In this document: one piece after another, positions 58,199-60,321 of the stretch
How the letters are laid out: the number at the start of each line of letters is the position of its first letter
How positions within the stretch are numbered: position 1 is the first letter of the stretch
Assembly: GCA_002711995.1 (NCBI GenBank)
Contig: PASN01000005.1
Location: 1-64,000, forward strand
Reading direction: 5' to 3'
Origin: Halobacteriovoraceae bacterium
GTDB taxonomy: Bacteria > Bdellovibrionota > Bacteriovoracia > Bacteriovoracales > Bacteriovoracaceae
Length of the DNA: 64,000 bases
Notes under the pieces: model-generated
The model's database searches: none
The model's input: the letters and a program-made list of their open reading frames with translations, nothing else
What the model was told of the DNA's origin: nothing
Translations under genes and position numbers: made by a program

Positions 58199-58741
58199 TT
58201 GCTTGTACTGGGAATTGACCCTGGCTCCATAACAACCGGATGGGCACTGCTTAATGGCAAGGGAAGAAAAATTAGTGTCATAGGCTCTGGTGTTCTACGC
58301 TTCAATGGCAAAGAGAACTTTCTAGATAGGCTCACTGAGATCAAAGTGGCCTCCAACAAACTTATCGAAGAACTATCTCCCGATGCTATCGCATTTGAGT
58401 CCCTTATCTACGTAAAGAGCCCGCAGGCATTAATTAAGTTGGCCCAAACAAGAGGGGTTATTCTATCTGCTTGCGTGGAAAAGTATAAGAATAGAATCTT
58501 TGAATACTCGCCCAATGCAATTAAATCTATCGCCACCGGCCATGGACATGCTGATAAAGAGGGCGTTAGAAAGTTTTTAGATATGACTTTGGGAAAGAGG
58601 GATTATCAGACCCATGACGAAAGTGACGCCGTTGCCATCGCTTTGTGCCACTTACTAAATTCAAAAAGCATTACTAAAGTTGGAAGCTCAAAAGGCTCAT
58701 CGGGACTGGCAAAAGCATTGGCCCACAAAATAGGAAATTAA
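58199..58741 (+). CDS. ruvC: Crossover junction endodeoxyribonuclease RuvC
   Basis: Resolves Holliday junctions on the RuvAB complex. 180 residues. D7 in LGIDPGSITTGWALL, the Glu in AIAFESLIYVKSPQALIKLAQTRGV, and the HDESDAVAIALCH Asp pair give the acidic centre. It starts at TTG with AAGG seven bases upstream. It is followed after one base by ruvA, then ruvB. Confidence 0.95.
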   Translation: MLVLGIDPGSITTGWALLNGKGRKISVIGSGVLRFNGKENFLDRLTEIKVASNKLIEELSPDAIAFESLIYVKSPQALIKLAQTRGVILSACVEKYKNRIFEYSPNAIKSIATGHGHADKEGVRKFLDMTLGKRDYQTHDESDAVAIALCHLLNSKSITKVGSSKGSSGLAKALAHKIGN

Positions 58742-58742
58742 G

Positions 58743-59332
58743 ATGATTGGATACTTGGAAGGAACCACCATTTTTCGGATGGGAAAAAATTAATAATAAA
58801 CACCAACAGCGGTGTTGGCTATGAGGTTAATTACGCTTATTTTGCCAAAGAGGGTGAACCAACCAAAGTATTCATACATCACAGCATTAGTGAGAATGAT
58901 CAAAGCCTTTGGGGATTTAAAACTGTAGAGGATAAGGCGATGTTTGAGCTTTTAAAATCTGTAAACAAAGTAGGCCCATCAAAGGCCTATCCGCTAGTCA
59001 CTCAAATTGGCATATCCGACTTAGTTTCTGCAATTGCGCTTGAACAGAAAGAAGTTTTGACTCAGGCACAGGGAATTGGAAAAAAGATGGCCGAACAGAT
59101 CATCCTTAGTTTGAAAGATAAAGTGCAGAAATTAGAAATTAGTAAAAATATAGAAAACACTGCAGCTATACCTCAGTCCTCCAAAGAGGAAGGTATTGTA
59201 AAAGACGCTCTACAGGCTCTAGAAAGCTTAGGCTATAGCGAGAAGATGGTTGCTTCCGTAGTTAGTAAACATTTTTCCGAAAACATTGAATCAAGCGAAG
59301 ACTTAATAAAGCTTGTGCTTAAGGAGCTATAG
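58743..59332 (+). pseudogene. ruvA: ruvA, interrupted by a -1 frameshift in a T5 run
   Basis: Holliday-junction-binding subunit. The ATG starts MIGYLEGTTIF, the normal RuvA N-terminus, but then reads into stops. One base back, the frame continues SDGKKLIINTNSGVGYEVNYAYF and on to the ordinary C-terminus (VGPSKAYPLVTQIGISDL, AQGIGKKMAEQIILSLKDK). The break is at 58771-58775, a run of five T; six would restore the frame. The two segments together make a full-length RuvA. It could be a real mutation, a sequencing error or slippage. Overlapping genes before and after are intact. Confidence 0.85.
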
Positions 59333-59334
59333 GC

Positions 59335-60321
59335 ATGCATGACGAGCGTTTTCTTTCAGACTCCATTAAAAGCAGCGAAGTGGAACATGACACTAAGCTT
59401 AGGCCGCAGAACTTTCAAGAATATGTCGGGCAAAAGAGAGTTGTTGAGAACGTTGAATTGATGGTCAAATCCTCCGTTAAAAGAAATGCGGCAATGGACC
59501 ACGCCCTTTTATCAGGACCTCCGGGGCTAGGAAAAACCTCATTGGCAATGCTTATTGCCAAAAACATCGGCAGTGAGCTTCATGTTATATCAGGCCCTGC
59601 CATTGAAAAAAAGGGGGATCTTGCCGCGGTTCTAACAAACCTTGCTCCAAGAGATGTGTTATTCATTGATGAAATACACAGAATGCATATAAGTGTTGAG
59701 GAGATTTTATACTCTGCTATGGAGGATTATCGCCTTGATATTTTAATTGGTCAGGGGGCATCGGCAAGGACCATGCAAATTGACCTGGTGCCTTTTACAT
59801 TAGTGGGTGCCACAACAAGAAGTGGTCTTTTGTCCAATCCTTTAAGGGATAGGTTCATGGCCCATTTGCACTTTGACTACTATGGTTCAGATGAGTTGGC
59901 CGTAATCATTTCAAACAATGCTAAAAAAATGTCTATCAACCTCGAAGTCAAAGCACAAAATGAGATAGCGAAAAGAAGTCGCGGCACTCCGCGAATTGCC
60001 AATAGAATCCTTAGAAGAGTAAGAGACTTTGCTCTAGTGCAAGATCACGAAAAGGTAGGTGTTGAAGACGTGGTCCAAGCGCTCAGACTTTTGGATATTG
60101 ATGAGTTGGGGCTGGACTCTATGGATAGAAAAATTTTGAATGTTATTAAAGATTACTACCAGAGTGGTCCTGTTGGGATAGATGCCCTTTGTGCCACTTT
60201 GGGCGAAGATAAACAAACTGTTGAGGAAGTGTATGAGCCCTACCTTCTTAAAGAAGGGCTTCTGCTTAGAACCCCAAGAGGCAGGGCGCTGTCTGAGAAA
60301 GCCTTAAACCATATAAAATAA
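59335..60321 (+). CDS. ruvB: Holliday junction branch migration helicase RuvB
   Basis: 328 residues. LRPQNFQEYVGQKRVVENVELMV, Walker A GPPGLGKT, Walker B DEIHRM, sensor ATTRSGLLSNPLRDRF and C-terminal winged helix VGIDALCATLGEDKQTVEEVYEPYLLKEGLLLRTPRGR are all canonical. It drives branch migration with RuvA and acts with RuvC. It starts three bases after the ruvA stop. Confidence 0.97.
   Translation: MHDERFLSDSIKSSEVEHDTKLRPQNFQEYVGQKRVVENVELMVKSSVKRNAAMDHALLSGPPGLGKTSLAMLIAKNIGSELHVISGPAIEKKGDLAAVLTNLAPRDVLFIDEIHRMHISVEEILYSAMEDYRLDILIGQGASARTMQIDLVPFTLVGATTRSGLLSNPLRDRFMAHLHFDYYGSDELAVIISNNAKKMSINLEVKAQNEIAKRSRGTPRIANRILRRVRDFALVQDHEKVGVEDVVQALRLLDIDELGLDSMDRKILNVIKDYYQSGPVGIDALCATLGEDKQTVEEVYEPYLLKEGLLLRTPRGRALSEKALNHIK

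Follow-up and report, generated by a model that had tools for sequence, protein, structure and literature searches.

Our analysis indicated that the deposited ruvA gene most probably (about 0.8) lacks one T of a run of six owing to a consensus, base-calling or assembly error, and that the gene would be ordinary and intact in the organism itself. The gene lies in a 64,000-nt stretch of the forward strand of PASN01000005.1 (the window, to which all plain coordinates refer), located in contig C2 of a source genome (G000) of 3.70 Mb in 23 contigs with a completeness of 96.4%. The error is favoured because the same run has six T and is in frame in a congener, because the gene is in frame in all relatives' loci compared, and because six other conserved genes of the assembly are each broken by a single base. 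Taken at face value, ruvA here would enter databases as a pseudogene or a case of recoding.

In the deposited sequence, the start codon and the body of ruvA do not share a single continuous frame. Translation from the ATG at 58743 (frame 0) gave MIGYLEGTTIFRMGKN and ended at the TAA at 58791–58793, and the −1 frame is open from 58742 to 59332, reading ...FSDGKKLIINTNSGVGYEV... through the end of RuvA. The product of the −1 frame scored 152.2 bits against the NCBIfam model TIGR00084 (ruvA), above the cut-off of 85, and its match to Pfam RuvA_N starts only at model position 16. These results bear out an earlier note on this DNA, which had described MIGYLEGTTIF and a stop in frame 0 with RuvA continued in the −1 frame. 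Its description of ruvC and ruvB as normal on either side was also upheld (Table 1): the RuvC product is above the cut-off of TIGR00228 but below that of NF000711, and the RuvB product passes both NF000868 and TIGR00635. An alternative start codon in the −1 frame was ruled out, as no ATG, GTG or TTG is found in that frame upstream of 58940. A RuvA_N profile search of the whole genome gave a single match and no second ruvA copy elsewhere. The break is more than a chance reading, since one base leaves a conserved RuvA body without an in-frame start.

Table 1. Features of the ruvA locus (window coordinates) and the six other interrupted genes of the assembly (L, sampled locus; C, contig of G000).
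Feature	Position	Strand	Basis, or state in relatives
ruvC, intact, upstream neighbour	58199..58741	+	ORF list; NCBIfam TIGR00228, 103.9 bits (cut-off 100.65)
ruvA start piece in frame 0, 16 codons and TAA stop	58743..58793	+	Sequence, translation
T5 run, site of the frame break	58771..58775	+	Sequence, comparison with relatives; T6 in congener G001
Remaining ruvA in −1 frame (SDGKKL... to stop)	58775..59332	+	Translation, profile matches
ruvB, intact, downstream neighbour	59335..60321	+	ORF list; NCBIfam NF000868, 458.8 bits (cut-off 282)
der (engA), in-frame TGA	L070:3262-3264 (G000:C19:3262)		Gly in 6/6 relatives
dnaE, full-length copy, in-frame TGA	L081:10153-10155 (G000:C13:110153)		Gly in G001, G002, G019 and G006; Gln in G016
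yicC, in-frame TGA	L077:3248-3250 (G000:C6)	−	Arg in 1/6, Lys in 5/6 relatives
Glutamine-amidotransferase (GATase)-like gene, in-frame TAA	L052:10246-10248 (G000:C12)	−	Lys in 3/4, Met in 1/4 relatives
LPG-synthase-TM-like gene, in-frame TAA	L068:3100-3102 (G000:C17)	−	Ser in 3/4, Thr in 1/4 relatives
S41 peptidase gene, frame break at A run	near L065:18500 (G000:C14)		One 627-aa frame in G001

The ruvA loci of relatives were compared at the DNA level in 37 cases, which represent about 35 genomes, as L034 duplicates L003 and L038 duplicates L005. A RuvA match was found in 54 of the 58 other genomes searched, and 29 of those 54 were compared in this way. Ten loci came from a search of named genomes and were metagenome bins labelled as Halobacteriovoraceae, Bacteriovoracaceae or Oligoflexia; L040 and L041, from the same search, are without the 5′ end of ruvA and stand outside the 37. 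No RuvA match was obtained in four of the 58 other genomes of the phylum (G031, G040, G043 and G047), two of them more than 90% complete, which real absence or distance may explain.

In each of the 37 loci a start codon in frame with the gene lies close to where it was expected, so the shift site is not conserved. The longest T run at the site ranges from 1 to 6. The only congener whose sequence covers the site, G001 (L003 and L034, same contig), reads GTA GTT TTT TCA GAT, a T6 run in frame, and its RuvA is 81% identical to that of the window over 114 residues. Comparing the T-run length in relatives had been proposed in the earlier note, and this is what it gave. The contigs of a second congener, G002, break inside ruvC and pick up at RuvA residue 104, leaving the site uncovered. 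In most relatives' loci 11 codons separate the start from the S of (F)SDG, and in the window the 11 residues MIGYLEGTTIF are followed by SDGKK in the −1 frame; the join therefore lies within the T5 run at 58771–58775. A shift at the A6 run at 58784–58789, where A AAA AAT before the TAA resembles a slippery heptamer, was rejected, because SDG lies upstream of it in relatives and the window has SDG only in the −1 frame. Comparison with G001 showed purifying constraint on the −1 frame (pN 0.108, pS 0.751, the latter saturated, over 109 codons).

The earlier note had also pointed out that tRNA-Phe could re-pair one base back, and this was found to be so: the frame-0 Phe codon TTT is at 58773–58775 and another TTT at 58772–58774, so that at the join, C ATT TTT, the Phe tRNA can re-pair on TTT, although the tRNA for Ile ATT cannot do so on CAT. 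Full-length RuvA might in principle be made by −1 slippage, either of the ribosome, with TTT re-pairing before CGG, or of the RNA polymerase transcribing the T run, but we consider this very improbable. CGG was the rarest sense codon in our first sample (1.3 per 1000 of 73,987 codons), and a purine-rich GGAAGGA is present upstream at 58757–58763. Against this, all 37 relatives' loci are in frame without a shift, and CGG is merely TCG GAT read out of frame. The T5 run is also shorter than the Tn, n > 8, given for transcriptional slippage in PMC3711429, whose main text does not mention ruvA. No notable downstream RNA structure was found when 84 nt were folded without pseudoknots (z −0.93; 34 of 200 shuffles equally or more stable). 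On its sequence, then, a T5 run with no notable downstream fold appears to be a weak shift site. Our literature search, judged by titles or the start of abstracts, found no account of programmed or ribosomal frameshifting in ruvA. If T5 were real and a little −1 slippage at TTT, ahead of the rare CGG, yielded full-length RuvA, this would be recoding of a repair gene peculiar to the lineage and absent from the 37 other RuvA loci examined; its probability is very low.

Other broken conserved genes were looked for in 692,042 bases of the 3.70 Mb genome, the window included. Frame changes were sought with a three-periodic codon model, which gave 136 raw and 23 kept candidates, and a scan for in-frame stops with coding sequence on both sides gave seven. 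Of 139 simulated deletions, the codon model recovered 89 in raw form and 69 once filtered; the shift in ruvA, being too close to the start, escapes it. Its application to a first sample of 297 kb confirmed no break; the confirmed ones came with the larger sample and the stop scan. Indels could not be counted usefully from a blastn comparison of the window with G001, since at 72 to 77% identity the noise was too high. Within the 64,000-nt window no second break was confirmed, and in the whole sample six further conserved genes were each found to be broken by one base, five by in-frame stops and one by a frame break (Table 1). Two stop candidates, L069:7982 and L069:15000, were gene boundaries by translation and not breaks. 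Of the 23 frame candidates, one was the dnaE stop and one the S41 peptidase, and 13 others viewed as translations resembled gene ends or overlaps.

The stop in der falls after 138 residues of its frame, and the frames of all six relatives are unbroken across the site (564 to 616 aa); the stops within some relatives' der matches lie ahead of the frame holding the site. This gene is essential in Escherichia coli and Bacillus subtilis. A sequence error is therefore likely there. The dnaE frame is 1119 aa long here vs 1266 aa in G001, and of about 1240 residues the break removes the last 121. The genome also has a second dnaE-type gene, a shorter one (G000:C7:68053-70857), which at 546 bits, neighbours included, exceeds the cut-off of the family. 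As only these last residues are lost and a second copy exists, the dnaE break gives weaker support for an error. Five of six relatives have a yicC frame of 290 to 302 aa; that of the sixth, G016 (L159), measures 152 aa, with its own stop at another place. The GATase-like frames run through in the four relatives compared (290 to 317 aa). Of six genomes searched for the LPG-synthase-like gene, two gave no match, and in the other four its frame also runs through (334 to 362 aa). In yicC and the LPG-synthase-like gene, the same Pfam family flanks the break on both sides. The S41 peptidase pieces match residues 5–278 and 247–625 of the G001 frame, and both frame breaks, in this gene and in ruvA, lie at a homopolymer.

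That the organism suppresses stops or frame breaks genome-wide, for example by reading TGA as an amino acid, is extremely improbable. Three TGA and two TAA do interrupt conserved genes, and two of the three TGA are at glycine positions. But where the genes are interrupted, relatives have Gly, Arg or Lys, and Ser, and there are two different stops as well as two frame breaks. Moreover, 68 of 527 ORFs of at least 150 aa end in TGA. UGA recoding was rejected on this ordinary use of TGA and on the varied residues. No single recoding fits the mixture of TGA, TAA and frame breaks, both of the latter at homopolymers; random errors would explain it better.

G004, a relative assembled in two contigs, served as a control: the same scans were applied to 560,000 of its bases, and candidates were judged by translation and Pfam. 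Five stop and 17 frame candidates were obtained. Four of the five stop candidates were run on Pfam: one had different families on the two sides, and three had no family on either side, which makes Pfam uninformative for them. Of the frame candidates, six of the 17 were viewed as translations. One candidate, L183:2014 (minus strand), is a Methyltransf_30 gene without ATG, GTG or TTG in the first 484 bases after the call; it may have a lost or unusual start, and so may be a break in the control. The chance of all six breaks falling in the sample, with none in the control, is about 0.025, and when L183:2014 is counted, the chance of at least six of seven in the sample is about 0.09. The excess of breaks over the control is thus suggestive only.

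The sample also contains 39 N letters, in six of its 33 stretches, none of them in the window. Eighteen were tested: counting the N as a base preserved the frame for 13, removing it gave a better fit for none, and five were undecided. A further 14 lie in L043 and seven in L076. Where decided, the N letters are of substitution type, and they mark uncertain bases and say little about homopolymers. The 14 N letters of L043 are clustered within 100 bases (L043:1917-2016, G000:C3).

That replication slippage recently deleted one base of the T run in the organism itself, inactivating ruvA in the sequenced strain or population, is unlikely, but deserves some weight. The deposited sequence does break the gene, and T runs are natural slippage sites. 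The next in-frame ATG, at 58940, would leave only the C-terminal two thirds of the protein, without the N-terminal domain. Because purifying constraint acts on the remainder of the gene, any such loss must be recent. Likewise, all the other breaks except that in der, five of six, could be real mutations. Counting against an error are the second copy of dnaE, the fact that the other four genes (yicC, the GATase-like and LPG-synthase-like genes and the S41 peptidase) are not known to be essential, and the yicC of G016, a relative, which is also interrupted. On the other side, ruvB and ruvC are intact, and the early stop in der should hardly be tolerable in a live cell, which makes errors likely in this assembly. 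The weaker support from dnaE and the weaker control lowered our estimate for a sequence error from 0.83 to 0.80 and slightly raised that for a real mutation.

A sequence error is accordingly the reading we retain: the cell's own DNA would have T6 at the site, and standard RuvA would be made from ruvC-ruvA-ruvB in the usual way. The view of the earlier note that an error or recoding is likelier than loss was supported for error, given the six further single-base breaks, but not for recoding, since none of the relatives examined needs a shift and the T5 run has no notable downstream fold. Its statement that ruvA requires a −1 frameshift was right about the deposited sequence, but the word is too strong, because the cell's own gene may have no frame break. 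Single bases interrupt conserved genes of this assembly, including at least one that is normally essential (der), and its other apparently broken genes should therefore be distrusted until checked against reads.

The GeneTack survey regards a singleton frame transition as a likely sequencing error or indel mutation, and clustered transitions as ones that may be programmed (PMC3711429). The ruvA transition appears to be a singleton among the relatives examined. Like the singletons described there, it is a break in one genome without shifted relatives; unlike them, it is accompanied by further breaks in the same assembly. With dnaX-type −1 programmed frameshifting it shares a T run where one tRNA could re-pair one base back, but it lacks a tandem slippery heptamer at the join and a notable fold downstream, and it is not conserved in the relatives examined. 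With RuvA (TIGR00084) and ruvCAB loci the window shares the gene order ruvC-ruvA-ruvB and, in the −1 frame, the residues, length and domains, and it differs in that one base in a T run places the start codon and the body in different frames.
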